DNA from: Balneolaceae bacterium
Lineage (GTDB): Bacteria > Bacteroidota > Rhodothermia > Balneolales > Balneolaceae
Length of the DNA: 64,000 nucleotides
NCBI GenBank assembly: GCA_034521495.1
Contig: JAXHMK010000021.1
Location: 1-64,000 of the forward strand
Direction of reading: 5' to 3'
A program made the translations under genes and the position numbers. Under the pieces are notes generated by a model that did no database searches, was not told the DNA's origin, and saw only the letters and a list, made by a program, of their open reading frames with translations. Shown in pieces: positions 25,367 to 57,244 of this stretch; positions within the stretch are counted from its first letter, which is position 1; every line of letters begins with the position of its first letter.

Positions 25367-26254
25367 ATGGAACTTGCAATACACAACTGGATGCGCGCCG
25401 AACCGATTGAAACCACAATCGAACGAATTGCCCGCCTCGGCTACCATAAACTGGAAATTTCCGGTGAACCGGAATCCTACGACACTCAAAAAGTTGGCAA
25501 ACTGTTAAAAGACCACGGAATAGGCTGCTGGGGATCGGTCACCCTGATGATGGAAGAGCGAAATTTACTTGCTGCTGATGAAGATCAGCGGGCCATGTCT
25601 ATTCAGTATGTGAAAGATGTTGTAAAAATGGTAAAAGAACTGAATGGTACTATGGTATCTGTTGTGCCGGGCACTGTTGGTAAACTGGTTCCCGATGGCC
25701 GTCCCGAAGAGGAGTGGGAGTGGGCCGTATCATCCATGAAAGAGATTTATGACTATGCGGAATCACAGGAAATTCTGATCGGCATTGAACCCATTAACCG
25801 GTTCGAAACCTACTTTATCAACAGGGGTGACCAGGCTCTTGCACTTGCAAAAGAGGTAGGGCCCAACTGCGGTGTATGCCTGGACGTGTTTCATATGAAT
25901 ATTGAAGAAGATGATATTTATGACGCGATTCTCCGGGCAAAGGGAAGAATCAACGGCATTCATGTGGCGGATAATAACCGGATGGCACCGGGGATGGGTA
26001 AATTAAACTGGCCTAAGATTATAGACACGGTAAAAGAAGCTGGGTTTGACGGGGCTATTTCTGTGGAATTCTGTTCACCGGTTGACCGAACTCCTGCAAA
26101 TCCGTATCTGAATTCAATTGATGAGAAGCCGGAGGGGTTAAGTGCCGAACAGAAAAAATTTATTGAAGATCACGGCAGTACATCCGTTTCTGAAGAGTTC
26201 TATACGGAACTGACCCGCAGATCGGCTGAAAAGCTTTTACCGTTGATTAGTTGA
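25367..26254 (+). CDS. Sugar-phosphate isomerase/epimerase-like TIM barrel
   Basis: A 295-residue cytoplasmic TIM-barrel enzyme of the AP-endonuclease-2/xylose-isomerase-like group that includes ketose 3-epimerases. No leader. Metal ligands fit the family: Glu141 in G-I-E-P-I-N-R-F-E, Asp173 in C-L-D-V-F-H-M-N, the His in H-V-A-D-N-N-R-M-A-P-G-M-G (near 199), and Glu234 in S-V-E-F-C. This is the four-residue metal set of tagatose or psicose 3-epimerases. It opens a set of four cytoplasmic genes (epimerase, enolase-superfamily enzyme, VOC protein, hydroxyacid dehydrogenase) likely to handle the sugar or sugar acid released by the exported enzymes. The exact substrate is unknown. Confidence 0.85.
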   Translation: MELAIHNWMRAEPIETTIERIARLGYHKLEISGEPESYDTQKVGKLLKDHGIGCWGSVTLMMEERNLLAADEDQRAMSIQYVKDVVKMVKELNGTMVSVVPGTVGKLVPDGRPEEEWEWAVSSMKEIYDYAESQEILIGIEPINRFETYFINRGDQALALAKEVGPNCGVCLDVFHMNIEEDDIYDAILRAKGRINGIHVADNNRMAPGMGKLNWPKIIDTVKEAGFDGAISVEFCSPVDRTPANPYLNSIDEKPEGLSAEQKKFIEDHGSTSVSEEFYTELTRRSAEKLLPLIS

Positions 26255-26278
26255 TAACCCTGAAGTAGGGCAAATAAA

Positions 26279-26481
26279 TCTCCCCTTGCGCTTGCGTCCC
26301 GACCATTCGGGGAGGGGAGTGCCGAAGCACAGCGAAGGCGAGGGGTGTCAGTGATGCCCCCTTTCACGAACTGCCTGAAACAGGGTCATGTTCAACACAC
26401 CCCTGATAGCTTCGCTAAACGCTACGCTATCTGTCCCCTCTCGAGCCACATTTGGTCCCGAGACTTCGGGGAGGGGAATCT
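26279..26481. repeat. Inverted G/C-rich intergenic repeat
   Basis: A pair of facing arms of the CTCCCC...GGGGAGGGGAGT kind, the left arm carrying AGGGGTGTCA and the right arm ACACCCCTGA, joined by about 45 bases. It fills most of the gap between the epimerase and the enolase-superfamily gene. It resembles the right half of the repeat at 42902. It extends the next ORF upstream without being coding. Confidence 0.7.
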
Positions 26482-26519
26482 CAAAACTCAACATTCAAAA
26501 CGTAATCACGAAACACCAC

Positions 26520-27686
26520 ATGATCATAGAAAACGTAGAAGCTTATTGGCTTCGCTGTCCCATTCAGGAAGCAAAACAACACCGGTCCGATTATGGATTG
26601 CTTACCCATTTTGATATGACTCTGGTTGTTGTAACAACCAAAGATGGGTTGCAGGGTTTTGGCGAGGCGAAAGCGGCGGTTGGTTCTTCCGGGGTGTGTG
26701 CTTCCATTGTAAGCTGTGTGGAAAATGAACTGAAACCGGCATTAATTGGTCAGGATGCACGGAATATTACCCGGATCTGGGAACAGCTTTATAGCGGAAC
26801 GCGCGATCACTATGCCCTGGCAAGAGGCCGGAAATTTCCAATCCTGGGGAGAAGAGGACTCACTATATCGGCCATCAGCGGTGTGGATATGGCACTGTGG
26901 GATTTGAAGGGAAAAGCCCTGAATGTTCCGGTTGTGGAACTGCTTGGAGGAGCCTGCCGGGATCAGATGCCTGCGTATGCAAGCGGCGGCTGGGCGGATG
27001 TGGATGGCATTGGCGAACAACTTTCCGGTTATGTATCAAAGGGATTTGATGGAGTAAAGATGCGGGTAGGGGTGATGGACGATACAGTTGGAAAGAGCAT
27101 TGCCAGGGTAAAAGCTGCCCGCGAAGCCCTGGGACCTGATATTAAGATTATGGCGGATGCACACGGCACCTACAGTGTACCCGAAGCCAAACAGTTTTGC
27201 AGGGGAGTTGAAGATTCTGATTTATACTGGTTTGAAGAACCGATCAGCCCGGATAACCCGAAGGGAACCGCAGAGGTTCGTGCCTCAACATCCATTCCCA
27301 TTGCAGCCGGTGAAAGCGAATACACCTGTTTTGATGTCCGTGATTTGATCAGCCATCGGGCGATAGATGTTGTTCAGCCGGATGCAGCGATCATCGGCGG
27401 AATCTCGGAAGCGATGCGGGTGGGCCATCTTGCGCAGGCATGGCAGCTGGAACTTGCTCCTCACTGCTGGGGATCTGCTTTTTCATTTATGGCAGGTGTT
27501 ACCGTTGCATTTGCAAGCCCTTCAGCTACAATTATAGAATTTTCGCTGGGTGGCAACCCGATGATGTATGATCTGGTAAACGAAAACATAGAAGCAGAAA
27601 ACGGAAAAATAAAAGCTCCCGATACACCCGGTTTGGGCGTTACACCCAATTGGGATTTTGTGAAGGAGTACAAGCAAAAAATTTAA
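26520..27686 (+). CDS. Mandelate racemase/muconate lactonizing-type enolase-superfamily enzyme
   Basis: A 388-residue cytoplasmic enzyme that abstracts a proton next to a carboxylate, usually as a sugar-acid dehydratase or cycloisomerase. The ATG at 26520 is chosen because the ORF upstream of it is made of the repeat. The capping domain is residues 1 to about 125. The barrel has G-V-K-M-R-V-G (Lys-x-Arg general-base region), metal ligands in A-D-A-H-G-T-Y, W-F-E-E-P-I and A-G-E-S, and the His of A-P-H-C-W-G. The Lys and His on opposite faces fit the mandelate-racemase subgroup, which includes many acid-sugar dehydratases. Placement between an epimerase and a VOC protein suggests a sugar-acid path; the substrate is not known. 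Confidence 0.85.
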   Translation: MIIENVEAYWLRCPIQEAKQHRSDYGLLTHFDMTLVVVTTKDGLQGFGEAKAAVGSSGVCASIVSCVENELKPALIGQDARNITRIWEQLYSGTRDHYALARGRKFPILGRRGLTISAISGVDMALWDLKGKALNVPVVELLGGACRDQMPAYASGGWADVDGIGEQLSGYVSKGFDGVKMRVGVMDDTVGKSIARVKAAREALGPDIKIMADAHGTYSVPEAKQFCRGVEDSDLYWFEEPISPDNPKGTAEVRASTSIPIAAGESEYTCFDVRDLISHRAIDVVQPDAAIIGGISEAMRVGHLAQAWQLELAPHCWGSAFSFMAGVTVAFASPSATIIEFSLGGNPMMYDLVNENIEAENGKIKAPDTPGLGVTPNWDFVKEYKQKI

Positions 27687-27715
27687 AACATGAATAGTCT
27701 TTCCGAGCTTTTGAT

Positions 27716-27759
27716 AGCACGAACAGCCTGCCCCGAAAAGTCGGGGTCTCGCTCGTGCT
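27716..27759. repeat. Strong intergenic hairpin
   Basis: Outer arms AGCACGA and TCGTGCT enclose an inner CCCCGAAAAGTCGGGG stem-loop, 30 bases after the enolase-superfamily stop. It could be a transcription end or mRNA-stabilising structure; no T-run follows directly. Confidence 0.6.
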
Positions 27760-27835
27760 CATTTTGGGACACCCCGATGTTTCGAGTGCCATCTTGAACC
27801 TTAGACTTTAAACCTTAAACCCAAAAACCAATCCT

Positions 27836-28414
27836 ATGTCACGCGCAGTTAAAATCAACCATGTAACACTTATCGTAGATAATCTGGAAGAAGCTGGCGA
27901 ATTTTATGAAAAAGAGCTGGGCCTCGATCCGCTGCCCGCTTTCAATTTCGATTACCCGGTAATGTTTTTTGATATCAACGATGAACAGCAGCTCCATCTT
28001 TCAGAGTGGGAAGACACACCCTCATTCCGGGGCCACGTCTGCATGCAGGTGGATGATTTCAATTCCATCTTTAAACGTATGAAAGAGTTAGAGGCGATTG
28101 ATATCAAACCCTGGGGAAACGTGCGACAGTTACCCGATGGTGCCATGCAGATGTTTGTACGTGATCCCTCCGGAAATCTCGTAGAGTTGTCCTCCCATCC
28201 GGATGCTGATATTGATGAAGCTATTTTTGAGGATGAACTCTATGAAGAAGGGCTTTACAAATCCAATCGTGAAGATTACAGGGGATATAAAAGTGATGAT
28301 GCATCGCTTTATCACGGTGAGAAGAAAAAGAAAAGTAATCGGTTTGAATATTATTCTTGGAGAAGGTTTATGTTCTGTCTGTTAGTGTCATCTTTCTATT
28401 ACCGTCTGCTTTAG
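27836..28414 (+). CDS. VOC (glyoxalase/dioxygenase fold) protein
   Basis: A cytoplasmic protein of 192 codons with one VOC module in residues about 4-125. I-N-H-V-T-L-I-V-D-N-L provides the first metal His (His9), H-L-S-E-W the mid-strand His, and L-V-E-L-S-S the last Glu. F-Y-E-K-E-L-G-L and F-V-R-D-P-S-G-N-L are standard. Members are metal-dependent isomerases, lyases or dioxygenases, so its reaction cannot be named. The last 25 or so codons (after the Lys-rich K-K-K-K-S) are encoded by the hairpin repeat beginning at 28396. The natural C-terminus was probably nearer 28330 and the present tail looks acquired. It sits in the middle of the putative sugar-acid gene set. Confidence 0.8.
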   Translation: MSRAVKINHVTLIVDNLEEAGEFYEKELGLDPLPAFNFDYPVMFFDINDEQQLHLSEWEDTPSFRGHVCMQVDDFNSIFKRMKELEAIDIKPWGNVRQLPDGAMQMFVRDPSGNLVELSSHPDADIDEAIFEDELYEEGLYKSNREDYRGYKSDDASLYHGEKKKKSNRFEYYSWRRFMFCLLVSSFYYRLL

Positions 28415-28526
28415 CTGACGGTAATGAAAGGCAGGAGGTAAATGGCTTTAGCCACATTCAATTTGGGGCTAAAGCCCTTCTAAGGTATCAGATCTCTCTC
28501 CCGTTGGCTGAAGCCAACGGTAATAG
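28396..28526. repeat. Three-hairpin intergenic repeat
   Basis: Three consecutive stem-loops: TACCGTC...GACGGTA, then GGCTTTAGCC...GGGCTAAAGCC, then CCGTTGGCTGAAGCCAACGG. The outermost CTATTACCGT and ACGGTAATAG are inverted copies. The layout resembles the three-hairpin units beside the transposase at 48135 but the sequence differs. It overlaps the 3' end of the VOC gene. Confidence 0.8.
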
Positions 28527-28582
28527 ATAAACAGAGATAGAATTTACAGGTAGTTTAAAAAATTCGAATTTAGATTTTTACA

Positions 28583-29539
28583 ATGAAAAAAAATGTACTT
28601 CTTCTCGAAACCGTTGCTACAGAGGCGGATACCCTGTTGCGTGAAAATACAATTGTTCATGAGGCTTTTCAGCCTGTGAATCCGGTTGAAGTTGCCAAAA
28701 ATACTACCATTCACGCGATTGTCACCCGGGGCAAAGGCCAGGTGAACCGAGAGTTGATGGATGCCTGCCCCGATCTTGAAGTCGTGGCCCGCTGTGGTGT
28801 TGGCCTTGATAATGTGGATGTTCCCGAAGCAACAAAGCGGGGTGTCAAAGTCATTAACGCTCCCGGTTCCAACTCATCAACCATAGCCGAACATGCCTTA
28901 ACCCTGATGCTGATGTGTGTCCGAAATGCATGGACGTCTGTTGAGCGCGTCAAGGACGGGGACTGGAGCTGGCGGAACCGATACAGCGGGGATGAACTGA
29001 GAGAAAAAACACTTGGTATTTTGGGAATGGGAAATATAGGTCAACGGGTTGCAAAACTGGCTGATGCTTTTGGGATGAAGGTGATATATTGGGATAAATT
29101 TCCTGTTCAATCGGAATATGAAAGCGGCTCAATGCAAAATGTTCTGAAACGGGCGGATGTTGTGACGATTCATGTACCGCTTCTGGAAGAGACGAAAAAT
29201 TTGATAGGTAAAAAGCAGCTTGATCTCATGAAACCGGGTGCTTTTCTCATCAATACGGCAAGAGGGCCTATTATTGATGAAGCGGCTCTTTTAAAAGCAT
29301 TGGACAGCGGAACAATTGCAGGTTTTGCGGCTGATGTTCTTGCTGTTGAACCACCGGGTAGCGATCATCTTTTGGTGAATCATCCAAAAACCCTCATTAC
29401 CCCACACACTGGAAGCCTTACAGCCACCACCTACCGGAATATGTGTGTGTCTACGGTTCAAAATGTGATTGCAGTCCTCAGCGGATCAAAACCCGACCCG
29501 AAATCAGTGTTTAACAGGGATAATTTGAATAGCAATTAG
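28583..29539 (+). CDS. D-isomer-specific 2-hydroxyacid dehydrogenase
   Basis: A 318-residue NAD-dependent dehydrogenase of the phosphoglycerate/glyoxylate-reductase type that interconverts 2-hydroxy and 2-keto acids. The dinucleotide motif L-G-M-G-N-I-G lies near 146-152. Catalytic residues fit the family: Arg in N-T-A-R-G-P near 229, Glu in A-V-E-P-P near 258, and His in T-P-H-T-G near 275. V-A-R-C-G-V-G-L-D-N-V-D lies in the substrate domain. No leader. As the last of the four cytoplasmic genes it would be suited to reducing or oxidising the keto-acid left after dehydration by the enolase-superfamily enzyme; this order of reactions is inferred. Confidence 0.88.
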   Translation: MKKNVLLLETVATEADTLLRENTIVHEAFQPVNPVEVAKNTTIHAIVTRGKGQVNRELMDACPDLEVVARCGVGLDNVDVPEATKRGVKVINAPGSNSSTIAEHALTLMLMCVRNAWTSVERVKDGDWSWRNRYSGDELREKTLGILGMGNIGQRVAKLADAFGMKVIYWDKFPVQSEYESGSMQNVLKRADVVTIHVPLLEETKNLIGKKQLDLMKPGAFLINTARGPIIDEAALLKALDSGTIAGFAADVLAVEPPGSDHLLVNHPKTLITPHTGSLTATTYRNMCVSTVQNVIAVLSGSKPDPKSVFNRDNLNSN

Positions 29540-29721: not shown

Positions 29722-30759
29722 ATGAATGTATTTCAAAATGGTTTAAGAATATTCAAAATTCTGGCGATTCTGATGATAGCAGCTTTAATTGGTACCCTGA
29801 ATGTGAATGCCCAGGAAAACGACCAATGGATTACGTTTGAACCGGGCGAGGGACCGGGCAACGGGCAACATATTGTACTGGTAAGCGGGGATGATGAATA
29901 TCGGTCCGAAGAAGCCCTGCCTATGCTGGCCAAAATTTTATCGAAACATCACGGATTTAAAACCACTGTTCTTTTTGCAATTGAGCCTGAGAGCGGTGAA
30001 ATCAAACCCGATTATCAAAACAATATTCCGGGTCTGGAAAATCTTGAATCTGCTGATCTGATGGTGATTTTTACCCGCTTCCGTGAATTGCCGGACGAAC
30101 AGATGAAATATATTGATGAATACGTGCAATCCGGTAAACCGATCGTAGCCTTGCGAACGGCAACGCATGCGTTTGCCTACTCAGAAAATTCGGAAAGTGA
30201 ATATGCAAAGTATTCCTACAATAGTGATGTTCCCGGCTGGGAAGGCGGATTTGGAAGACAAATTCTCGGTGAAACCTGGGTAGATCACCATGGAGATCAT
30301 GGAAGTGAAGGAACCAGGGGCTTAATTGATGGAATTATGGAGCGAAATGATCATCCAATAATTAGGGGTGTTTCCGATATTTGGGGACCAACGGATGTAT
30401 ATGGAACCAGGGAGCTTCAGGGCGATGTGGATGTTCTGGTATGGGGAGCATCAACCAATGGAATGACACCAGAGGCTTCTATCAATTGGGAAAAATCAAT
30501 CATGCCGGTGGCCTGGACAAAAACATATACTTCGGAACAGGGAAATACCGGGAAAGTTTTTACTACAACCATGGGATCTTCTGAGGATCTGGAAAGTGAG
30601 GGCTTTCGAAGGCTTTTGGTCAACGCCTGTTACTGGGCTCTCGACATGGGAGAGGAGGTTTCTGAAAATAGCAACGTTGAACTTATTGGAGAATATACAC
30701 CCACGAAATTCGGTTTTGGTGATTTTATCCAGGGCCTTAAACCGATTGATTATAAATAA
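29722..30759 (+). CDS. Secreted ThuA-like protein
   Basis: A 345-residue exported protein of the ThuA family (class I glutamine-amidotransferase fold, often encoded with trehalose or sugar-oxidation genes). A Sec leader spans residues 1 to about 32, ending N-A-Q. The fold starts at I-V-L-V-S-G-D-D-E-Y-R-S-E-E. The L-V-I-F-type strand M-V-I-F-T-R-F-R-E-L and the P-I-V-A-L-R-T-A-T-H-A-F block are typical; Thr takes the place of the amidotransferase Cys. D-H-H-G-D-H-G and F-T-T-T-M-G-S-S-E-D follow. Family activity is poorly defined; members are thought to act on keto-sugars. Its position between the sugar-acid genes and a propeller-cytochrome protein fits an oxidative sugar route. Confidence 0.82.
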   Translation: MNVFQNGLRIFKILAILMIAALIGTLNVNAQENDQWITFEPGEGPGNGQHIVLVSGDDEYRSEEALPMLAKILSKHHGFKTTVLFAIEPESGEIKPDYQNNIPGLENLESADLMVIFTRFRELPDEQMKYIDEYVQSGKPIVALRTATHAFAYSENSESEYAKYSYNSDVPGWEGGFGRQILGETWVDHHGDHGSEGTRGLIDGIMERNDHPIIRGVSDIWGPTDVYGTRELQGDVDVLVWGASTNGMTPEASINWEKSIMPVAWTKTYTSEQGNTGKVFTTTMGSSEDLESEGFRRLLVNACYWALDMGEEVSENSNVELIGEYTPTKFGFGDFIQGLKPIDYK

Positions 30760-30979: not shown

Positions 30980-33900
30980 GTGATTAACTTGAAAGTGAAT
31001 TTTAATCGAACACTCACGTTTTTAGCTATTGCTCTAATTTCTTTCAGTGCTGTTCAATGCACTCGAACAGATCATACTCTGCAGATCAGCAAGGATGCTC
31101 ATATTACACTAATCGGAAATAACCTCGGATCAAGAATGATGAATTTCGGCCATTTTGAAACCGAGATGCACGTTCGCTATCCGGATAGTTTACTCTTTAT
31201 TCGGAACATGAGTGATCCCGGAAACAGGCCCGGATTTCGTCCTCATGCATCCCGTAATTCACCATGGGCATTTCCCGGCGCCGAACAGTTTTACACCGAA
31301 TTAGCTACTGATTCAAACAGCCAGGGTCATTTTGAAACACCGGACGAGTGGCTGACCCGGCTTGAAACAGATATTATCATTGCATTTTTTGGCTATAATG
31401 AATCGTTTGAAGGAGAGGCCGGGCTGGAAAACTACAAAGCAGAACTGGATGCGTTCATCAAACATACATTAAATCAGAACTATAATGGAGAAACGCCCCC
31501 GCAGCTTGCCATTGTTTCTCCCATTGCATTTGAAAATCTTTCCGATGAGCATGATCTGCCCGATGGTCGCAGTGAAAACGAAAACCTGAGCCTCTATACG
31601 GAGGCAATGGAAGAGGTTGTCGATAAACACAATTCACTTGCCGAAGAGCATGATGTGCTTTTTGTTGATGCATTTTCGCCATCCAAAGACTGGTTTGAAT
31701 CGAGTGAAGATCCGTTAACCATTGATGGATCACAGCTCAATGAAGAAGGGTATGCGAAATTCGCAAAACTGCTGGCTGATGAGGTCTTTGGGGAGGTTGA
31801 TGCGGAAGTCGAAGAACATCGGGACTTAGTTCATGAAGCCGTACTTGAAAAAAACTGGATGTGGCATAATGATTTTAAAATTCCCAATGGTGTGCATGCT
31901 TACGGCCGTCGATACAATCCGTTTGGTCCGGACAACTATCCGGCTGAAATTGAGAAAACCCGGCAAATGACCGCTATCAGGGATACAGCGATTTGGCGTG
32001 CGGCAAATGGAGAACAGATGGATGTAGCGGCAGCGGATCAAAATACCCGGCAGCTACCGGAAGTGGAAACCAATTTCGATCCCGATCAGCATGGGAATCC
32101 CGAATACAAGTACGGAGAGGATGCACTCGAGACATTTGAAATGGCCCCCGGTTATGAAATTAAACTGTTTGCGTCTGAAGAAGATTTTTCCGATCTGGCA
32201 AATCCCGTTCAACTCTCATTTGATACCAAAGGGCGACTTTGGGTAGCTACAATGCCAAGCTACCCACACTACAAGCCGGGTGATGAAAAACCCAATGATA
32301 AGCTGATTATTCTTGAAGATACCGATGGCGACGGCCGGGCTGATAAACAGACCACATTTGTGGATGGATTACATCTTCCTGTAGGGTTTGAGTTTGCACC
32401 GGAAGGCGTGTATGTATCGCAGGGAACGAATTTGATGCTTTATACAGATACGGATGGCGATGACCGGGCAGACACCAGCGAAATTGTTTTGAGCGGTTTT
32501 GATGATCATGATACTCACCATGCACACAGTGCATATACAGCGGATCCATCCGGCGCTATCTACATGGGAGAGGGCGTATTTCTGCATACCAATGTTGAAA
32601 CGTCGTATGGGCCGGTTCGCGCAACGAACGGAGGGTTTTACCGGTACAATCCTCAGCGCCGCCGCCTGGAACGAACGGCCCAGTTATCGATACCCAATCC
32701 GTGGGGTATTGCATTTGACGAGTGGGGACAGAATTTCTTTGCCGAAACATCCGGCCCGGATGTTCTCTGGATGATGCCGGGTACAGTTAAACCCAGGTAC
32801 GGCGTAGCCAATCCAAAATCAAGAAACCTGATTGAAGATGAACACAGGGTTCGTCCGACTTCAGGGCTGGAATTTGTGTCGAGCCGGCATTTTCCGGATG
32901 AGGTTCAGGGAGACTTTTTGATCAACAATACCATAGGATTTCTGGGTACCAAACAGCATACACTGGAAGATGATGGCACGGGTTATAAAAGCCGCCACAG
33001 ACAGGATTTGGTTCAATCAAGCGATCGTAATTTTCGTCCTGTGGATATGGAATTTGCTCCCGATGGTTCACTTTACCTGGTGGACTGGCACAATGTATTG
33101 ATCGGCCATATGCAGCATAATGCACGAGATCCGCTCAGAGATCACGTTCACGGCCGAATTTATCGAATCACCTATCCTGAACGGCCATTGGTGGAACCCG
33201 CAAAGGTGGCTGGCGCAACCATCGAAGAGTTATTTGAAAATCTGAAGCTTCCCGAATTCAGAACCCGGGAACGAACCCGCTTGGAATTACGGAGTCGTGA
33301 TGCATCAGAAGTGTTACAACATTTAGATACCTGGATTGCCAATCTTGATGAAAGCGAAGAAAGATATGAACACCACTTATTAGAGGCACTGTGGGTAAGC
33401 TGGGGATTAAACCAGGTTCATGACCAACTGCTTCGCGAATTGCTTGATGCGGAGGATTATCGGGTCAGAGCTGCTGCAGTACGAGTGCTTCGATATACGG
33501 GTCACCAGGTGGAGGATCAGGTCGATCTGCTCGTTCAGGCAGCCGGAGATGAACATGGCCGGGTTCGTCTGGAGGCAATTGTAGCAGCCTCATGGCTGAG
33601 CCAGGACGACGGTTTATCCATTTTAAACGAAGCCGGAAACTACCCAATCGATGACTGGATGCGGCCCTCCTACGATACGGCTCTTGCACGCCTGCTTGGA
33701 GAAACCGTTCAAGACGAAGAACCCGAGGAGATTGAAACCAGCCTCACAGGAACCGAACGAGATTTATTCATGAAAGGCAGAGAGATTTATGCCCTGGACG
33801 GCTATTGTGGTACTTGTCATCAGCCCGATGGCAAAGGATTAACGGCTTCGGGTTTTCCTCCCCTTGCAGGAACCCGATGGGTAAACGGAAATGAAGAACG

Positions 33901-34168
33901 GCTGATCAAATTAACATTACATGGTTTGGCCGGCCCTATAGAAGTGCTTGGGAAAGAGTATCCCGGAAATGTTCCCATGACTCCTTTCGGGGGAATGCTC
34001 AATGACGAAGAGGTCGCAGCTGTACTCACGTATGTGAGAAATGCATTTGGAAATGAAGCATCGGCCATTACTCCCGAAAAAGTGAAAGAGGTACGGGAAG
34101 CCACTCAGGATAAGAATGGATTTTATTCACCCGATGAGTTGCTGGAACAACATCCTTTTGAGGAGTGA
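30980..34168 (+). CDS. SGNH-like, propeller, HEAT and cytochrome c fusion lipoprotein
   Basis: A 1062-residue lipoprotein (lipobox A-V-Q-C near residue 27) starting at a GTG. Four parts are visible: an SGNH-hydrolase-like domain (about 38-270), a six-bladed propeller of the soluble sugar-dehydrogenase or membrane-bound-dehydrogenase type (about 385-740), HEAT repeats (about 745-910), and a mono-heme cytochrome c (C-G-T-C-H near 942, later M-T-P-F-G-G-M as likely Met ligand). In the SGNH part, the first block reads L-I-G-N-N-L where G-D-S is needed, and the last reads D-G-S-Q-L where D-x-x-H is needed, so both catalytic residues seem missing. Likely an outer-surface or periplasmic dehydrogenase passing electrons to heme. 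The gene at 34932 shares its propeller-HEAT-heme plan. Confidence 0.85.
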   Translation: MINLKVNFNRTLTFLAIALISFSAVQCTRTDHTLQISKDAHITLIGNNLGSRMMNFGHFETEMHVRYPDSLLFIRNMSDPGNRPGFRPHASRNSPWAFPGAEQFYTELATDSNSQGHFETPDEWLTRLETDIIIAFFGYNESFEGEAGLENYKAELDAFIKHTLNQNYNGETPPQLAIVSPIAFENLSDEHDLPDGRSENENLSLYTEAMEEVVDKHNSLAEEHDVLFVDAFSPSKDWFESSEDPLTIDGSQLNEEGYAKFAKLLADEVFGEVDAEVEEHRDLVHEAVLEKNWMWHNDFKIPNGVHAYGRRYNPFGPDNYPAEIEKTRQMTAIRDTAIWRAANGEQMDVAAADQNTRQLPEVETNFDPDQHGNPEYKYGEDALETFEMAPGYEIKLFASEEDFSDLANPVQLSFDTKGRLWVATMPSYPHYKPGDEKPNDKLIILEDTDGDGRADKQTTFVDGLHLPVGFEFAPEGVYVSQGTNLMLYTDTDGDDRADTSEIVLSGFDDHDTHHAHSAYTADPSGAIYMGEGVFLHTNVETSYGPVRATNGGFYRYNPQRRRLERTAQLSIPNPWGIAFDEWGQNFFAETSGPDVLWMMPGTVKPRYGVANPKSRNLIEDEHRVRPTSGLEFVSSRHFPDEVQGDFLINNTIGFLGTKQHTLEDDGTGYKSRHRQDLVQSSDRNFRPVDMEFAPDGSLYLVDWHNVLIGHMQHNARDPLRDHVHGRIYRITYPERPLVEPAKVAGATIEELFENLKLPEFRTRERTRLELRSRDASEVLQHLDTWIANLDESEERYEHHLLEALWVSWGLNQVHDQLLRELLDAEDYRVRAAAVRVLRYTGHQVEDQVDLLVQAAGDEHGRVRLEAIVAASWLSQDDGLSILNEAGNYPIDDWMRPSYDTALARLLGETVQDEEPEEIETSLTGTERDLFMKGREIYALDGYCGTCHQPDGKGLTASGFPPLAGTRWVNGNEERLIKLTLHGLAGPIEVLGKEYPGNVPMTPFGGMLNDEEVAAVLTYVRNAFGNEASAITPEKVKEVREATQDKNGFYSPDELLEQHPFEE

Positions 34169-34931: not shown

Positions 34932-37616
34932 ATGAAATTTAATGTTAGCCGGGCAGGATTCTATCTGAATATCTTCTTTCTCTTATTAACGATGTTGATA
35001 GCTGGGGGATTTAGTGCCAATATAAATCAGCGAGTTGATTTACAGGATAGTGAACATTTTGCTGATGCAGAAAAAGATTCCGTTTTACAAAACATAGAGA
35101 CACTTCCCGGTTTTGAAGTTCAAAAGATCTATGAGGTACCACGCGAGCAGCAGGGATCGTGGGTAGCTTTAGGGGTCGGTCCAAAAGGGCACTTGATCGC
35201 TTCGGATCAAGAGACCAAAGGGATGTATCGAATTGAAATTTCTGGTGATATTGATAATCCGGAAGTCAGAACTGAAGAACTTGTGATGCCAATTTCCGGT
35301 GCGCAGGGTTTGCAGTGGATGGATGATCATTTATATGTGAATGTAAACGGAAAAGGCCTGTTCAGAATGAAGTATAATGAAGAAGGTGACCTCTTTAATA
35401 TCCTGGAATACCTTGGAGGACCTGATGGCGGTGGTGAACATGGGAATCATGCCTTGATAAAAGCACAAGATAATAATGGTTTGTATGTGGTAAACGGTAA
35501 TCATACTCCGCCACCTGACTTTACCTCAAGCAGCATAAAAAATTGGAAGGAAGATATCTTACTGCCCCGTAACTGGGATGCACGCGGCCACGCCAGGGGG
35601 ATCACAGCTCCGGGTGGATATATTGCCCGTATCAATTCAGATGCTACGGAGTGGCACATGGTCAGTATCGGTTATCGTAATACTTACGATATCGCTCAGA
35701 ATCAACATGGGGATCTGTTTGCCTATGATTCGGATATGGAATGGGATATGGGGATGCCCTGGTATCGTCCTACACGATTGGTTCACGCCGTTAGCGGAAG
35801 TGATTATGGCTGGCGGAGTGGTAGCGGAAAATGGAAAGAGTATTACGAAGATAGCTTGCCTCCAATCGTAAATGTAGGCCCGGGGTCACCCACGGGTCTC
35901 TTGTTTGGAACAGGAGCGAAATACCCGGCAAAATATCAGCATGCATTGTTTGGTTTAGATTGGACGTTCGGAACGATGTATGCGTTTCATATTAAACCGG
36001 AAGGGGCAAGTTATAAGGCAGAGGTTGAAGAATTTCTTTCCGGATCACCACTGCCGTTGACAGATGCTGTAATTGGGAGTGATGGATATTTATACTTTGT
36101 GACGGGTGGCCGGGATAAAGAATCTACACTTTACCGGGTTATTTATACTGGAAACGAATCTACCACCGAAGCAGAGTCGTTCGAAGAGGACGATGAGGCA
36201 AAAGAGGCCCGAGAACTGCGTAAAAGTCTCGAAGCTTTTCATGGAACTCAAAATTCTGAAGCGATTGATACGGCGTGGCCTCACCTGGACAATCACGATC
36301 GATTTATACGTCACGCTGCCAGGGTAGCTGTTGAATGGCAACCGGTGGATGCATGGGCAGAAAAAGCAATGAATGAGGAGAGACCCCAGGCGCGTATCAC
36401 AGCCCTGGTTGCATTGGCTCGCGCCGGTTCTGAAGAGTACCGTAACGGAGCAATTGAATCGTTGATAGACCTGAATTTTGAATCTCTGACTCCCATGCAG
36501 AAACTGGGATATCTGCGAGCCGCATCCCTCATATTCATGCGCCTGGGTGATCCCGATGATGAACAGCGCTCTGAAATCACTGACATCTTATTAGAACAGC
36601 TGCCACATGACGATGTACGAGTGAATACAGAAGTGATCAGGCTTTTGGTTTACCTGGAAGAGCCCCGGGTGATTGAAAAAGCCCTGGCACTTTTACAGGA
36701 AGAGAAAGCACCTCCGGTGCCCGATTGGAACTCTGCCCTGATTGCCAGGAGTGAAGAGTATGGCGGAACCATTATGGAAATGCTTAACAATCCACCTCCA
36801 ATTCATAAATTGGAATATGCATTTATGCTTAGAAATTTGGCTCACGGATGGACCATTGAGCAGCGTCGGGAATACTTTACGTTTATTAACGAGGCCTCTG
36901 AACAGGGGATGGGAGGAAATAGTTATTCCGGCTTTTTAGAACGAATGCGTGACGAAGCCTTGCGAAATGCTTCAGAAGAGGAAATAGAGGCAGTATCTGA
37001 TCTGACCGGAGTCAGCCTGAATAGAACACCCGATTTTGAAATTAATCCACCCGCCGGACCTGGACGAGAGTGGACTGTGGAAGAAGCTTTAGCAGTGCTG
37101 AATGAAGATCAAAACGGCAACGAAACAGATAGTGAATTAAGTTTCGAACGAGGCCGTAGCCTGTTTCATGCAACCGCGTGTGCATCCTGTCATCGGTTGG
37201 GCGGTTTCGGGGGGAATATCGGACCCGATTTAAGTAGTGTAAGCAATCGATTTAACAGAGAAGGAATATTGGAAGAGATTATTCATCCGAGCCGCTCGAT
37301 TTCTGATCAGTACAGTAGTTATATGGTTAAGACGAATGATGGAGAATCGTATACCGGACAAATTGTAAAACGCCGGGATACCGTGGAAATTTATACGCAG
37401 AATATGGATCAGCCTCCAACGATAGTCTCCCGCGATCAGGTTGCTTCCATTGAAGAAGCTGAAACCTCTCAGATGCCACCGGGGCTGATTAATGCATTGA
37501 ATCCTGAAGAATTAAAAGATCTGATGGCATACTTACTGGCTGCTGGAAATCCTGAAGCTGATATTTATAAGAGTGAAGACGATGAGACGAATTCTGAAAA
37601 TGATGAGGAGGAATAG
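34932..37616 (+). CDS. Propeller, HEAT and cytochrome c protein (PVC-type)
   Basis: An 894-residue exported protein with a Sec leader to about residue 32. Residues about 50-405 form a dehydrogenase-type beta-propeller (V-A-L-G-V-G-P-K-G-H-L, H-G-N-H-A-L, D-A-R-G-H-A-R-G-I). Residues about 425-700 are HEAT repeats. The tail holds a cytochrome c domain with A-C-A-S-C-H near 747 and N-I-G-P-D-L, then the Q-M-P-P-G-L-I-N-A-L ending typical of Planctomycete-like heme-binding domains. A very acidic tail closes it. It likely oxidises a sugar or alcohol in the periplasm and passes electrons to its heme. Partner of the 30980 protein by architecture, although it lacks the SGNH part. Confidence 0.85.
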   Translation: MKFNVSRAGFYLNIFFLLLTMLIAGGFSANINQRVDLQDSEHFADAEKDSVLQNIETLPGFEVQKIYEVPREQQGSWVALGVGPKGHLIASDQETKGMYRIEISGDIDNPEVRTEELVMPISGAQGLQWMDDHLYVNVNGKGLFRMKYNEEGDLFNILEYLGGPDGGGEHGNHALIKAQDNNGLYVVNGNHTPPPDFTSSSIKNWKEDILLPRNWDARGHARGITAPGGYIARINSDATEWHMVSIGYRNTYDIAQNQHGDLFAYDSDMEWDMGMPWYRPTRLVHAVSGSDYGWRSGSGKWKEYYEDSLPPIVNVGPGSPTGLLFGTGAKYPAKYQHALFGLDWTFGTMYAFHIKPEGASYKAEVEEFLSGSPLPLTDAVIGSDGYLYFVTGGRDKESTLYRVIYTGNESTTEAESFEEDDEAKEARELRKSLEAFHGTQNSEAIDTAWPHLDNHDRFIRHAARVAVEWQPVDAWAEKAMNEERPQARITALVALARAGSEEYRNGAIESLIDLNFESLTPMQKLGYLRAASLIFMRLGDPDDEQRSEITDILLEQLPHDDVRVNTEVIRLLVYLEEPRVIEKALALLQEEKAPPVPDWNSALIARSEEYGGTIMEMLNNPPPIHKLEYAFMLRNLAHGWTIEQRREYFTFINEASEQGMGGNSYSGFLERMRDEALRNASEEEIEAVSDLTGVSLNRTPDFEINPPAGPGREWTVEEALAVLNEDQNGNETDSELSFERGRSLFHATACASCHRLGGFGGNIGPDLSSVSNRFNREGILEEIIHPSRSISDQYSSYMVKTNDGESYTGQIVKRRDTVEIYTQNMDQPPTIVSRDQVASIEEAETSQMPPGLINALNPEELKDLMAYLLAAGNPEADIYKSEDDETNSENDEEE

Positions 37617-43114: not shown

Positions 43115-44980
43115 ATGAATCAGGCAATTAATGAGAGCTGGCGACATATTAAAACCGCAGGATTAACTCTTTTTTTGGGAATCTTCCTCTTTGGCTGCGG
43201 TGATCCGGAAACAGAAGAACTTCCCAATATTTTGTGGATCACAAGCGAGGATAACAGTCCGTTTTTGGGTGCGTATGGCGATGATTACGCAGATACTCCC
43301 AATCTGGACCGGCTGGCTGATGCAGGAGTTCTCTATGAAAATGCTTACGCTACCACTCCGGTTTGTGCACCGTCGCGCTTTACTCTTATTACCGGAACCT
43401 ATGCCAACCGAATGGGTACGGAAAATATGCGCAGTACTTATCCAATCCCTGAGAACATCCGGTTTTACCCGGCATACCTTAAAGAGGCCGGTTATCATAC
43501 CACCAACAATGTGAAAAAAGATTACAACACGATTGATCAGCCGGAAGTGTGGGATGAATCCAGTGGTGAGGCCCATTACAGTGACAGAGCGGAGGGACAG
43601 CCGTTTTTTCATATTCGAAATTTTACGACGACTCACGAAAGCAGGCTCCACGATCCAATTGACACACTGATTCATGATCCTGATGATGCTCCAGTACCGC
43701 CTTATCATCCAAATACAGAAACCGTTCGACGGGACTGGGCTCATTACTATGATCAGATGACACGGATGGATGAACAGGTCGGCGAGCTTCTGGATGAACT
43801 GGAGAAATCAGGTGAAGCCGAAAATACGATCATCTTTTACTATGGAGATCACGGGGGAGCTCTGCCCGGGGCGAAACGGTTTATGAATCAGCGGGGACTG
43901 CATGTACCGCTCATTGTCTATTTCCCGCCAAAATATGAACATCTGAAACCGGAGGAGAATCGAACAGATCGATTGGTTTCTTTTGTGGATTTTCCGGCAA
44001 CACTGCTGAGTCTCGCCGGCATCGAACCACCGGAATTTATGGACGGTGAACCGTTTTTGGGTGAATATGAAACCGAACCGCGTGAGTATATTCATACCTA
44101 TCGGGGAAGGATGGATGAACGATATGATCTGTCCAGAGGAGTTCGCGATCAGGATTTTCTCTACATACGAAATTATATGCCTCAGCGGATTTATGGGCAA
44201 TACTTGAATTATTTATGGAGAGCGCCCACCATGCAGGTTTGGGAAGAAGAATACCGGGCCGGAAACCTGAATGAAATACAGAGTCAGTTTTTTGAGTCCA
44301 AACCCGCTGAAGAGCTCTATTTGATTTCCGAAGATCCATATTCTGTGCATAACCTGGCCGATGATCCGGCCTACCGGGAAGAGTTGCAGCGATTACGTGA
44401 AGTAAACTCCGAATGGATTCGGGAGATCAACGATTTGGGCTTTATCCCGGAAGGAATTTTGGATGATATTCGCGGAGAGCGACCGCTTTACGATGCCGTT
44501 CGCGAGGATAATGTTCCGATTAATGAGATTATCGAAACTGCGGAGATGGCGTCCTATCAACCGGAAAATAATATGGAGGAATTGGTCAGCCGATTGGACC
44601 ATTCTGAGGCGTCCGTCCGGTTCTGGTCAGCGATGGGAATAGCGATCAGCGGAGATTCTGCATCTGAGTATTCATCAGAATTGCTCGAAAGAAGGAATGA
44701 TCCATCGGGATCTGTCCAGGTAGCCATTGCGGAAGCTCTTTTGGCTGCGGGTGAAATATCTGCTGCTATTGACTTGATTGAAGAAACTCTCAACAATCCG
44801 GACGGTCATGTAAAACTCCGGGCTGTAAACTTGATTGAAACCCTTGATGAAAGCCTGATTACGGATAACATCAGAAACACCATTCGCCAATTTGTGGATG
44901 AAATGGAAAACGATGAAGCCGCCGCTGCCGGCTATGTGTTCAGGGCTTCGGAAAGGCTTGTTGAGAAATTGGATTTGTAA
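43115..44980 (+). CDS. S1 sulfatase lipoprotein fused to HEAT repeats
   Basis: A 621-residue lipoprotein (lipobox L-F-G-C, Cys28). The catalytic domain has I-T-S-E-D-N at 42-47, where Glu replaces the first Asp of the usual pair, and P-V-C-A-P-S-R at 82-88 with formylglycine Cys84. The usual G-K-W-H is missing; the aligned site reads N-N-V-K-K-D-Y. Y-Y-G-D-H-G-G near 255 supplies the later Asp and His. Residues about 490-621 form four or so HEAT-like helical pairs (W-S-A-M-G-I-A-I-S-G, A-I-A-E-A-L-L-A-A-G, L-R-A-V-N-L-I-E-T-L). HEAT tails on sulfatases are unusual and may dock the enzyme to a partner. S1_8-like by general pattern; the substrate is unknown. Confidence 0.85.
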   Translation: MNQAINESWRHIKTAGLTLFLGIFLFGCGDPETEELPNILWITSEDNSPFLGAYGDDYADTPNLDRLADAGVLYENAYATTPVCAPSRFTLITGTYANRMGTENMRSTYPIPENIRFYPAYLKEAGYHTTNNVKKDYNTIDQPEVWDESSGEAHYSDRAEGQPFFHIRNFTTTHESRLHDPIDTLIHDPDDAPVPPYHPNTETVRRDWAHYYDQMTRMDEQVGELLDELEKSGEAENTIIFYYGDHGGALPGAKRFMNQRGLHVPLIVYFPPKYEHLKPEENRTDRLVSFVDFPATLLSLAGIEPPEFMDGEPFLGEYETEPREYIHTYRGRMDERYDLSRGVRDQDFLYIRNYMPQRIYGQYLNYLWRAPTMQVWEEEYRAGNLNEIQSQFFESKPAEELYLISEDPYSVHNLADDPAYREELQRLREVNSEWIREINDLGFIPEGILDDIRGERPLYDAVREDNVPINEIIETAEMASYQPENNMEELVSRLDHSEASVRFWSAMGIAISGDSASEYSSELLERRNDPSGSVQVAIAEALLAAGEISAAIDLIEETLNNPDGHVKLRAVNLIETLDESLITDNIRNTIRQFVDEMENDEAAAAGYVFRASERLVEKLDL

Positions 44981-45227: not shown

Positions 45228-47507
45228 ATGATTCATACCATTTTTTCTTCCAGATCTTTTCAGTTTGTCGGCATTTTTGCTCTATTTGTCACCTTTGGGC
45301 TCATCTACAGCTGTACCCAAAATAATCAAGCCAAACAAGAAGGCAGCGATGTTGATATCTCCCAAAACCACCGGTTTGTTGGAGATCAGACCTGTCAGTC
45401 GTGCCATGCAACCCAATGGGAAGAGTGGAAAGGATCTCATCACGATTACGCCATTGCCGAGGCAGACGAGGAATCTGTGCGAGGAGATTTTGACAATACC
45501 GAATTTCAGGATGGAGAGTACACATATCGGTTTTTTCGTGATGGAGAGCAGTATAAAGTAGAAGCTCCAGGACCGGATGGGGAAATGCAGGTTTATCATA
45601 TCTCCTACACCTTTGGCTGGGAACCGCTGCAGCAATATTTGATTGATTTCGGAAAGGGAAAGATGCAGGCGTTACAAATTGCCTGGGATACCGAACAGAA
45701 TCGCTGGTTTTCTCTCCGCCCTGAAGAGAATCCTGAGCCAGGCGACTGGCTGCACTGGACGGGAGCCAGTATGAACTGGAACACCATGTGTGCGGATTGC
45801 CACTCTACCAATCTGAAGGAAAATTATATCGCTGAAGCTGACTCCTTTCACACCACATGGTCGGTACTGAATGTGAGTTGCGAAGCATGTCACGGACCGG
45901 GCGGAGATCATGTGGATTTTGTAAACAGCCCGGAAGGTGAGCAGGCATCAAAGGAGAGAATACGGAGCGATCTGATCAACGGACGATTTACAAGCCAGAT
46001 GGATGAGATTAATACATGTGCTCCCTGTCACTCTTTACGGCAGAAACTGACGGACGAGTATATCCACGGCGATGAGTACCTGGATCATTTTGACCCGACG
46101 CTGCCTCATCCCGATAACTATTTTGCCGACGGACAGATCAGGGGTGAAGTGTATGTGTACGGTTCGTTCCTCCAAAGCAAAATGTTTGCTGAGGGAGTGC
46201 AATGCACCGATTGTCACAATCCACACACGCTTGAGTTAAAAGAGCCTCTAACCGAAAATAAGTTGTGTATGACTTGCCATGAACCGAGGTATAATACCCC
46301 GGACCATCATTTCCATGAAGTAAATACGGAGGCCTCTCAATGTATCAACTGCCACATGACCGGGCGGACCTATATGGGAAATGATTACCGTCGCGATCAC
46401 AGTTTTCGAGTTCCCCGGCCCTCTCAAAGTGCGCAATTTGGAACTCCGAATGCGTGTAATGATTGTCACACGGATCAATCAGCAGAATGGGCGAGCGAGG
46501 CTGTTGAGGAGTGGTACGGTGCAGACGATTCTACTCATTTTACAGATATTCTATTGAAAGCTGATAATCCCGGTTCGGAAACCATCCGTGCCCGAACACA
46601 GCTCAGCGATTTGATAGCCGATTCCTCTAAACCGGATATGATTCGGGCAACGGCACTCTGGTATGCCGGTCATTTTCCATCTATGGGAACAACGGATTTG
46701 ATTCGGGAGTCCCTGGAATCTGAATCACCACTCATAAGAAATAGTGCCGCAAAAGCCGTTCAAAATCTTCCTTCGGAGATGAGAACACTGGTGCTTAGAA
46801 AATCTCTGACAGATTCGGTGAAAGCAGTACGGATGTCAGCCATGCAAAATCTTGTTTCATATACTGCAGATGATTTTGGAAATGCATACAAAACTGATTT
46901 CCGCAACGCGCTTCAAGAATACAAAGAAACCCTGGAAGTGAATCGCTATTTCCCTCAGGGTGAGATGAACCGGGGTCAATTTTATGAGCAGCAGGGAGAC
47001 ACCGAAAAAGCGATTGAAGCGTATAAATCTGCTCTTGAGCGAGATGCCGAGTTCAATCCGGCGCGAATAAATCTTGCCTATCTCTATAATGGCCAGGGTC
47101 GAAATGACGAAGCGGAACGGCTCCTGAGAAAAGTGATTGAACAGGAACCGGAATTTGGCCAGGCTTACTATTCTCTTGCTCTGTTATTGGCCGAAGAGGA
47201 GCGGCTGGAAGAGGCGATTCCCTATTTTGAGGAGGCTTCTGAACTGAATCCACAACAGGCTCGAATTTTTTATAACCTGGCAATTGCAAATCAAACAATA
47301 GGACGTTCCGAGGAAGCGGAAACAGCCTACCTGGATGCCATCGAGCTGGAACCTGAAAACACCGATTACCGCTACGGCCTGCTGACTCTCTACATGCAGC
47401 AGGAAGAGTATGAAAAAGCTCTCGAGCAGGCGCACCGACTGCAGGAGTTGAATCCAAATAATGCCCGGATAGGACAGATTATTCAGTCAATTGAGAGGGA
47501 GATGTAA
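45228..47507 (+). CDS. Octaheme cytochrome c lipoprotein with HEAT and TPR repeats
   Basis: A 759-residue lipoprotein (lipobox I-Y-S-C, Cys29). Eight C-x-x-C-H heme sites can be counted: C-Q-S-C-H (56-60), C-A-D-C-H, C-E-A-C-H, C-A-P-C-H, C-T-D-C-H, C-M-T-C-H, C-I-N-C-H and C-N-D-C-H, spread over about residues 56-420. The order resembles the cytochrome c554/DmsE-type multiheme families. A short HEAT-like part follows (about 445-560), then TPR helices to the end (A-I-E-A-Y-K-S-A-L-E-R-D, A-R-I-N-L-A-Y-L-Y-N). It could collect electrons from the FAD enzyme and propeller-cytochromes of the cluster. That link is inferred from neighbours only; a respiratory role unrelated to glycans is possible. 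Confidence 0.88.
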   Translation: MIHTIFSSRSFQFVGIFALFVTFGLIYSCTQNNQAKQEGSDVDISQNHRFVGDQTCQSCHATQWEEWKGSHHDYAIAEADEESVRGDFDNTEFQDGEYTYRFFRDGEQYKVEAPGPDGEMQVYHISYTFGWEPLQQYLIDFGKGKMQALQIAWDTEQNRWFSLRPEENPEPGDWLHWTGASMNWNTMCADCHSTNLKENYIAEADSFHTTWSVLNVSCEACHGPGGDHVDFVNSPEGEQASKERIRSDLINGRFTSQMDEINTCAPCHSLRQKLTDEYIHGDEYLDHFDPTLPHPDNYFADGQIRGEVYVYGSFLQSKMFAEGVQCTDCHNPHTLELKEPLTENKLCMTCHEPRYNTPDHHFHEVNTEASQCINCHMTGRTYMGNDYRRDHSFRVPRPSQSAQFGTPNACNDCHTDQSAEWASEAVEEWYGADDSTHFTDILLKADNPGSETIRARTQLSDLIADSSKPDMIRATALWYAGHFPSMGTTDLIRESLESESPLIRNSAAKAVQNLPSEMRTLVLRKSLTDSVKAVRMSAMQNLVSYTADDFGNAYKTDFRNALQEYKETLEVNRYFPQGEMNRGQFYEQQGDTEKAIEAYKSALERDAEFNPARINLAYLYNGQGRNDEAERLLRKVIEQEPEFGQAYYSLALLLAEEERLEEAIPYFEEASELNPQQARIFYNLAIANQTIGRSEEAETAYLDAIELEPENTDYRYGLLTLYMQQEEYEKALEQAHRLQELNPNNARIGQIIQSIEREM

Positions 47508-47776
47508 TTTGAGCCAGGGTGTCTAATGTTTAAAAGTCTAAGGTTTAAGGTTCTTTTAGAAGGGTTCAGATACAGATGACCCAACCCGGTAGATGCGATT
47601 TACAAATGACGAATGAAGTCGAGGGGCAGTAATGAAGCATGATGATAAAGCCTTTGCTTTTAATCACGAGATTTCCTGTCCTCAATTATTTTTTTTGAGA
47701 TGGATCTGTTCGGAATATTAGAGAGAAGGAGAAAATTATCGTTGGTCAATCCGTCTAAAAGATTCTATTAAAGCGG

Positions 47777-48100: not shown

Positions 48101-48134
48101 ACGGGAAACTAAAATGGATACGGTTCACATTGAT

Positions 48135-48590: not shown

Positions 48591-48726
48591 GATGAATCGG
48601 TTTGAATTTTGTTAGTTGATTGTTACTTGTATGAACCGATTGGATGGCATTCCTTACAAAATTTATACATATAAAATTGTGGGAGCCAGTAGTGATATGG
48701 TAAATGATAGATAGATTATAGAGTAG

Positions 48727-49148: not shown

Positions 49149-49374
49149 CCTGCTTGAATCTAAAATCAATACAGCACCCGCAACCTGCATCCATCCAAAA
49201 ATCCTGCATCCTGTAGCTTTAAACAATTAATTTGAGTACGAATGAGGATTCTCTGTCTCTCTTTTAATGAATAAGTATTGAAGTGTATGTGGTAAGGTCT
49301 CAAAGGGTTTATTTCGAATCCTGAGAAATCTACAGATTCGAAGCTTCAAATCCGTAGCTGGAAATCTGTCATAG

Positions 49375-49436: not shown

Positions 49437-49502
49437 TCGACTTTTCTCTTTACAATTTTTTACGTATTTAAAAGTGGAGTTACGAACAATTGATAGGATT
49501 GT

Positions 49503-57242: not shown

Positions 57243-57244
57243 TT

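Follow-up and report, generated by a model that had tools for sequence, protein, structure and literature searches.

What an SGNH-fold domain might do once its catalytic serine and histidine have been replaced, and once it forms part of a predicted redox protein, is the question raised by an open reading frame (ORF) in the 64,000-nucleotide stretch of Balneolaceae bacterium DNA analysed here (the window; contig JAXHMK010000021.1). On sequence comparison, a binding or scaffolding module that presents substrate, as the initial annotation had proposed, fits best. In its full form, i.e., a non-hydrolytic obligate partner that would bind or position sugar for a propeller-cytochrome dehydrogenase, this reading is given about an even chance of being right.

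Domain architecture of the fusion protein

The ORF at positions 30980-34168 (+ strand, GTG start, 1062 aa) is a genuine reading frame, and domain matches bear out the four-part fusion of an SGNH domain, a dehydrogenase-type propeller, HEAT repeats and cytochrome c that had been read from its translation. All features given below lie on the + strand. At the N-terminus, a putative signal sequence (30980-31060) ends in a lipobox-like SAVQ-C (C27); a simple lipobox pattern is matched by 37 of the 80 homologues compared among the matches listed, and several others have a hydrophobic N-terminal stretch instead. The SGNH-fold core (residues 40-272; 31097-31795) is followed by a conserved C-terminal extension of the module (residues 273-385; 31796-32134), in which the clade alignment marks K291-N292, K300, H306, and R311. 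The beta-propeller (residues 386-735; 32135-33184) matches DUF7133 (residues 380-732, E 9.8e-71) and TIGR02604 (231.9 bits, above the curated cut-off of 122.2). The HEAT-repeat region (residues 736-920; 33185-33739) matches HEAT_2 (PF13646) at 817-895 and is helical in the model, and the cytochrome c (residues 921-1062; 33740-34165) matches Cytochrom_C (PF00034) at 932-1021. TIGR02603 was not listed for the cytochrome part at E up to 1, a search in which the hmmscan filters drop weak matches. Its CGTCH motif (943-947) and Met1000, a putative axial ligand, recur in all 80 rows among the matches listed (CxxCH 80/80, Met 80/80).

By sequence, the SGNH part is recognized below threshold, with Lipase_GDSL_2 (PF13472) at 118-259 scoring 25.0 bits under a gathering score of 32.9, and PF00657 scoring 18.9 bits under its gathering cut-off of 23.6. 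Structure prediction, one of the checks proposed at the outset, gave an SGNH alpha/beta fold: an AlphaFold2 model covering residues 30-385 (mean pLDDT 84.4, pTM 0.80) matches solved SGNH chains with Z up to 19.2, and the core matches SGNH esterases at Z 17-19. The pLDDT falls below 50 at residues 300-307 and 309-312, the region of K300, H306, and R311.

Replacement of the catalytic serine and histidine

The former active-site blocks can be placed on the protein as block I GNNLGSR (residues 46-52; 31115-31135), with G46-N47-N48 at 31115-31123 and the Ser site at N48 (31121-31123), and block V D-G-S-Q (residues 249-252; 31724-31735), with the His site at Q252. Profile alignment to the solved esterase 3mil puts the family's Gln on the block-V His, block I lying outside the aligned part. 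Against 26 His-bearing relatives, a profile-profile alignment over 318 columns (E 7.6e-76) puts GNN on GNS and DGSQ on NGVH. Structurally, the AlphaFold2 model has N48 (its residue 19) at the start of the helix following strand 1 and Q252 (its residue 223) in the loop preceding helix 226-241, the classic Ser and His places of the SGNH fold. Because of these three lines of evidence, N48 and Q252 are assigned to the Ser and His sites, an alignment slip is ruled out, and the proposal that both residues have been lost stands. The Asp-to-Asn exchange in the GDS motif, which had also been read as a sign of inactivation, proved uninformative, since BT4096 (7br2) also has Asn at this place (GNS) in its alignment.

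Conservation was assessed in two sets. One joins the window protein to the 80 closest loci among the matches listed, less L029, whose ORF is broken; in it, N48 and Q252 are each found in 80/80 rows. Within a broader alignment of 162 rows, a window clade of 108 rows was defined by identity to the window protein of at least 45% outside the motif columns or by an insert carrying W96 and F98; these motif-free definitions return the same 108 rows as picking by Asn at the Ser site. The proposed test of N and Q conservation across the fusion family, run on this clade, gave Asn at the Ser site in 108/108 rows and Gln at the His site in 107/108 (Ser in the remaining one). In block I, R52 is likewise present in 108/108 and S51 in 107/108; in block V, D249 is present in 108/108. 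Judged from these alignments, the loss of Ser and His is a family trait, beyond chance in one protein. The G-Y-N-E-S of block III (residues 138-142; 31391-31405), described as retained, is so in the window protein itself; across the clade, G138 and S142 (both 108/108) and E141 (106/108) hold, but N140 varies (N80 S24 T2 P1 L1 of 108).

A conventional SGNH esterase or deacetylase working with an unusual nucleophile would be in keeping with the intact fold, which by aligned length is nearest BT4096 (7br2, Z 19.2) and then acetylxylan esterases, but the His is missing in 108/108 clade rows, the oxyanion Asn is replaced in 28/108, and the Ser site holds Ala or Gly in 14 of 48 relatives. Asn is not known to act as an SGNH nucleophile. 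This explanation is considered very unlikely, and by alignment the window clade should not be labelled an esterase.

A decaying hydrolase remnant would explain the absence of both catalytic residues and the Pfam score under threshold. However, the conservation is centred on the old site: among the same 80 rows from the matches listed, invariant columns make up 20/39 of the former active-site blocks, chosen by the analyst after the SGNH block pattern, and 30/194 of the rest of the core (one-sided Mann-Whitney p 1.4e-7). The former active-site blocks being more conserved than the remaining domain, the domain is not in decay. The SGNH part is also under purifying selection: of 9 pairs, 7 gave a dN/dS value, in the range 0.007-0.069, some dS being near saturation (up to 2.0). 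Nor was a close relative without the SGNH domain found among 29 places with propeller identity of at least 76%; these lie within ORFs of 1042-1118 aa, each recovered by the SGNH query too. On conservation, domain retention, and dN/dS, decay was rejected as scarcely credible. In most pairs, dN/dS is higher in the SGNH part than in the propeller, which is counted against the binding-module reading.

Order of loss in the wider family

The framing of the initial annotation, which presents the catalytic loss for this fusion, was not supported in this respect: the loss is not peculiar to it, the Ser site being already variable outside the window clade. In 48 wider-family rows it is occupied by T22, S12, A9, and G5, and the His is kept in 48/48. 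A tree of 94 of the 162 rows, from which the trait columns were removed, has the His replaced by Gln just once, along the stem leading to the window clade (support 100/100); it carries a long-branch warning, and its outgroup does not make up a single side of a branch. Since the wider family shows variation at the Ser site with the His kept throughout, the Ser nucleophile is, on these alignments, taken to have been relaxed first, and the His to have been replaced by Gln later and once. Further switches map to the same stem: Asp takes the place of Asn249 and Lys that of Arg300, and an aromatic insert of 25 residues is gained. The insert follows block II (residues ~90-117; 31247-31330) and contains P-W-A-F-P-G-A-E, of which W96 and F98 are each present in 108/108 clade rows; the R87-D122 spacing is 34-49 residues in the 108 clade rows and 9-15 in 47/48 wider-family rows, with 28 in one. 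In addition, His184 of fused relatives is Phe in the window clade.

Split, fused, and rewired forms occur side by side in two genomes (G171 and G162), and one plasmid, from Runella rosea, carries the split form. For SGNH proteins, the family thus offers a case of stepwise loss (Ser relaxed, then His) with living intermediates. The wider-family rows sample two phyla (the window's and one other), five genomes behind the closest loci, and one plasmid; several are closely related, and their counts do not equal independent events. The 80 loci are the best among the matches listed, and thus close kin.

Linkage to the propeller

The propeller sequence is found in the same ORF in all 107 further window-clade rows. 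Of the 48 wider-family rows, 23 are fused, 23 lie directly upstream of the propeller gene on the same strand, and 2 are at contig ends; 'directly upstream' denotes stop-to-stop frames overlapping by <900 or apart by <400 bases, and the number becomes 22 without L182, whose frames overlap by 984. The coupling to the propeller is therefore tight, i.e., fused or directly upstream in every case open to judgement. As a weak control, no propeller was found directly downstream of 6 canonical or other SGNH rows, with 0-822 bases downstream in four of these and 969 in one; behind the sixth (L052), a fusion of the window clade follows after ~2.3 kb. The SGNH part is present as one copy only in its own genome (E up to 0.01), and pattern scans of viral contigs confirmed no relatives.

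This linkage would also suit a purely structural module without a ligand, helping the dehydrogenase to fold, dimerise, or stay anchored, in which case the split-gene forms would be separate structural subunits. Such a module is held to be rather unlikely, since the extra conservation is centred on the former active-site blocks and not spread across the domain, and a surface-only role would need no invariant N48, D249, R75, and R87 or near-invariant Q252.

A proposed role for the former active site

In the reading of a non-hydrolytic sugar-binding partner, the protein would be a sugar dehydrogenase that is exported and held by a membrane or lipid anchor, built on the PVC-type propeller / HEAT / cytochrome c plan, and the N-terminal SGNH-fold module its obligate partner, having lost ester hydrolysis. 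The former active-site cleft may be retained as a specific pocket for a sugar, or the end of a glycan, ahead of oxidation in the adjoining propeller, with electrons probably leaving via the fused cytochrome c. The Ser nucleophile would have been dispensable and the His retained in the wider-family module, and the exchanges of His252, Asn249, and Arg300, together with the aromatic insert, would have rebuilt the pocket along the window clade's stem. The linkage to the propeller makes this hypothesis directly testable through removal or exchange of a single domain. Counted against it is that the conserved Arg, Glu, and Lys would suit a catalyst as well.

A Ser-His pair elsewhere in the fold was also looked for, and the search returned conserved clade-specific candidates, S51 (107/108) and H306 (108/108), where the 48 wider-family rows have E29 D13 V5 S1 and Y27 D14 L5 S2, respectively; H306 falls in the part of the model with pLDDT <50. 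With these near-invariant residues another chemistry may operate, which is likewise counted against a purely binding role. Catalysis may have been relocated to an S51-H306 dyad, possibly with D249, or replaced by acid-base chemistry, e.g., elimination or isomerisation of the keto-sugar or lactone that the propeller produces. R300K and N249D (both 108/108), the tight linkage, which suits a follow-on step, and the 3-keto-disaccharide hydrolase and ThuA genes close by are consistent with this. However, S51 lies one helical turn beyond the usual Ser place and may point away from the pocket, and H306 is within the low-confidence stretch; relocation is judged improbable. A bolder reading, which we regard as improbable, is that the whole SGNH-fold family would serve propeller-cytochrome sugar oxidases as an obligate subunit without esterase activity, in split, fused, and fused-and-rewired forms, and the window-clade pocket would perform new S51/H306 chemistry on the oxidised sugar. 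If true, one polypeptide would both oxidise and process a glycan unit.

Genomic neighbourhood

A ThuA-family gene lies directly upstream of the fusion (29722-30759; PF06283, 7e-15). ThuA homologues are the commonest neighbour, being at most 4 genes away in 41 of the 80 loci among the matches listed and directly upstream in 29. Further upstream in the window, a cassette (25367-29539; domain matches) encodes an AP_endonuc_2 TIM barrel, an enolase-superfamily protein, a glyoxalase-like protein, and a 2-hydroxyacid dehydrogenase, and homologues of all four are near the fusion in five of the 80 loci among the matches listed (L013, L016, L026, L060, and L078). Downstream, a second PVC-type propeller / HEAT / CxxCH protein (34932-37616; TIGR02603 5.6e-29; TIGR02604 1.5e-12, under cut-off) is matched by no GDSL family in a search reaching E 1. 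Other nearby genes include Gfo/Idh/MocA, alpha-L-rhamnosidase, and several sulfatases; with ThuA and the 3-keto-disaccharide hydrolase, they are counted in favour of the sugar-dehydrogenase reading. Sulfated glycans as a general substrate are weakened as a candidate, the window's sulfatases having homologues in 9 of the 80 loci among the matches listed (flanks of up to 6 kb, many contigs being shorter). Promoter and terminator scans gave counts not above shuffles.

Comparison with known systems

The top structural match of the SGNH module is BT4096 of the GDSL family, by the PDB title of 7br2 a gut microbial diltiazem-metabolizing enzyme (Z 19.2, rmsd 5.0, 262 residues), which aligns with model residues 1-314, reaching into the extension, and also lacks the Asp of GDS in block I (GNS). 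It differs in having its own Ser and His at the aligned places and in being a stand-alone chain of 450 residues. The SGNH/GDSL-fold proteins Axe2 (acetylxylan esterase, 4jj4, Z 17.4) and PARMER_00689 (4q9a, Z 18.5) share the core fold and block order; relative to such hydrolases, the window protein has Ser-to-Asn and His-to-Gln exchanges, the clade insert, a long C-terminal extension, and the redox fusion.

The propeller is best matched by PQQ sugar dehydrogenases (E 4.6e-8), with PQQ-dependent aldose sugar dehydrogenases and AA12 at Z 24.3 (3a9g, rmsd 3.2, 285 aligned), 21.7 (2g8s), and 21.8 (6h7t), which makes PQQ a candidate cofactor, but non-dehydrogenase propellers appear in the same fold list at Z 22.7 and below. 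Since lactonase- and DFPase-type propellers are within ~2 Z of the best dehydrogenase, and the propeller profile had no significant sequence match among solved chains (best E 0.096), the dehydrogenase label represents fold rank and annotation. No paper on an SGNH/PVC-type fusion was found in the open-licence literature, which does not show absence. Lac161_ORF7, from a Verrucomicrobia metagenome, has TIGR02604, HEAT_2, and cytochrome c domains in identical order, with no mention of an SGNH domain; when purified, it was reported to split lactose (PMC5342196). With lactose cleavage reported for a PVC-type propeller / HEAT / cytochrome protein of this kind, the core here may be something other than a plain dehydrogenase. 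Compared with PVC-type heme-binding CxxCH proteins (TIGR02604, DUF7133), with which it shares the propeller / HEAT / cytochrome c core, the window protein carries in addition, at its N-terminus, the SGNH-fold module with its extension.

Architecture of the fusion protein and its locus

The ORF at 30980-34168 on the forward strand encodes 1062 residues. With domain boundaries set in this study, an N-terminal signal sequence that includes a lipobox-like Cys27 is followed by the SGNH-fold core (residues 40-272) and its conserved extension (273-385). Residues 386-735 form a propeller matching DUF7133 and TIGR02604, residues 736-920 consist of HEAT repeats, and a cytochrome c bearing CGTCH and Met1000 lies C-terminal to these. 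All parts of the fusion described in the initial annotation are thus present, and the motifs GNN (46-48), GYNES (138-142) and DGSQ (249-252) lie where it had placed them. Matches of the GDSL models of Pfam to the window protein all stay below gathering scores. Judged by its catalytic residues, the protein does not belong to the SGNH hydrolases, although it shares their fold; it does belong to the TIGR02604 proteins.

In the window, a ThuA-family gene immediately precedes the fusion; among the 80 best loci of the matches listed, such a gene is found at most four genes away in 41 and immediately upstream in 29. A cassette of TIM barrel, enolase-superfamily, glyoxalase-like and 2-hydroxyacid dehydrogenase genes recurs in five of these 80. 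Further window genes encode sulfatases, a 3-keto-disaccharide hydrolase domain, Gfo/Idh/MocA and alpha-L-rhamnosidase proteins, and a GH43-like protein with a match below the cut-off. This gene content suggests that a deoxy- or acid-sugar glycan is broken down oxidatively.

The locus holds another HEAT fusion, of 870 aa, with a 3-keto-disaccharide hydrolase domain (14643-17255). The ORF at 45228-47507 joins a multihaem cytochrome (C554/C7-like) to HEAT repeats and numerous TPRs, and the C-terminal part of a sulfatase (43115-44980) weakly matches HEAT_2 (E 0.00036, below the cut-off). Short ORFs dominate 1-9200 and 47600-61600, several being fragments of known families, namely, sulfatase (3-488, 4240-4818, 4652-5134), TonB receptor (56214-56582, a weak match), SusD (57539-58018) and metallophosphatase (59373-59780), with an IS200-like transposase (48135-48590) among them; these look like decayed or frameshifted glycan-utilisation genes.

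Loss of the catalytic Ser and His in a conserved pocket

That Ser and His are lost, as first proposed from the motifs, is borne out by three comparisons. In a profile of 67 SGNH parts, the family Gln aligned on the block-V His of the solved esterase 3mil (block I fell outside the alignment), and in a profile-profile comparison with 26 relatives (318 columns, E 7.6e-76) GNN fell on GNS and DGSQ on NGVH. The third is the AlphaFold2 model of the SGNH part (pLDDT 84.4, pTM 0.80), for which most of the structural matches listed were SGNH enzymes (top Z 17-19). In it, N48 opens the helix that follows strand 1, and Q252 is a loop residue before helix 226-241 (model numbering), the positions classically occupied by Ser and His.

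Across the window and 79 of the 80 closest loci among the matches listed (L029, a broken ORF, was left out), N48 and Q252 do not vary. In the window clade, which numbers 108 of 162 aligned rows whether delimited by its insert or by columns outside the motifs, the Ser site is Asn and the DxxH Asp site is Asp in all 108 rows, and the His site is Gln in 107. The sole other row, L107 (G178:C7), has Ser there and reads DGISL. Invariant columns make up 20 of 39 in the four former active-site blocks versus 30 of 194 in the remaining SGNH core. Pairwise dN/dS of the SGNH part (seven of nine pairs gave values) was 0.007-0.069, comparable with the values for the HEAT and cytochrome parts and, in most pairs, higher than that for the propeller. 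Block conservation and low dN/dS show that the pocket is maintained and is no relic. GYNES is kept in the window protein, but N140 (the oxyanion site) is replaced in 28 of the 108 rows, which counts against a fully intact oxyanion site.

Changes at the Ser and His sites in the wider family

The wider family comprises 48 rows without Gln, from the window's phylum, the phylum of locus L034 (Acidobacteria per its record) and one plasmid; six canonical or other SGNH proteins make up the rest of the 162 rows. His is kept in 48/48, and the DxxH Asp position is Asn in 46. The Ser site varies (T22, S12, A9, G5), so a Ser nucleophile is not required in the family. In a tree of 94 of the 162 rows, with trait columns omitted, the window clade forms a single 100/100 branch of 53 rows, adjoining 16 His-bearing relatives, of which 15 are seen fused and one (L123) runs to a contig end. 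The His site changed three times: His/Gln once, the Ser of L107 once and a gap row once.

H252Q, N249D, R300K, S51 and H306 distinguish the window clade. S51 and H306 may form a relocated catalytic pair; the model, with pLDDT < 50 in the H306 stretch, leaves room for this reading. Phe at position 184 is a further trait of this clade; 16 of the 17 fused relatives have His there, and the other rows are mixed. The R87-D122 spacing, widened by an insert with invariant W96 and F98, is 34-49 residues in 108/108 rows versus 9-15 in 47 of the 48 wider-family rows (28 in one). Loci L189-L193 of the second phylum, propeller fusions in frames of 1313-1512 aa, carry SGNH-like modules whose block I reads GGTDMVH or GGTDMVY and whose block V reads NGMHL; they are a far branch of this family.

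Linkage to the propeller and distribution

All 107 window-clade rows other than the window encode the propeller within the SGNH ORF. Among the 48 wider-family rows, a propeller is fused in 23 and encoded by the next gene downstream, in the same orientation, in 22 (23 with L182); two rows run to contig ends. A propeller-only search of 395 genomes gave 29 places at ≥76% identity (ORFs of 1042-1118 aa), all also recovered with an SGNH query. The split form occurs in a named record, a Runella rosea plasmid, where an annotated SGNH gene is followed by a propeller frame absent from the gene table; genomes G171 and G162 each hold split, fused and rewired forms. Carriage is patchy. The window's module as query picked out 31 of 296 genomes, and a relative's module 43 of 395 (including G097, weak and unclassified), with several forms counted in both cases; in the second phylum the figure is 24 of 297, of which four qualify through canonical SGNH rows alone.

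Proposed function and comparison with known systems

The best matches of the propeller are PQQ sugar dehydrogenases (structure, Z 24.3; E 4.6e-8), followed by other propeller enzymes (Z 22.7 and lower); sequence comparison of the propeller with solved chains gave no significant match. The SGNH module would hold a sugar beside the propeller, and the cytochrome would carry electrons off. The interpretation in the initial annotation, a sugar-binding or scaffolding role, is in part supported. The conservation, loss pattern, predicted fold and linkage are shown here, while the ligand, cofactor, electron path and export of the protein are presumed. Alternatively, the conserved module may serve a structural role only.

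A propeller/HEAT/cytochrome relative, described without an SGNH domain, is reported as a beta-galactosidase (PMC5342196), a warning that the chemistry of this core may not be simple. For the SGNH part, BT4096 (7br2) gave the longest alignment among the listed structural matches, reaching into the extension of the window protein.
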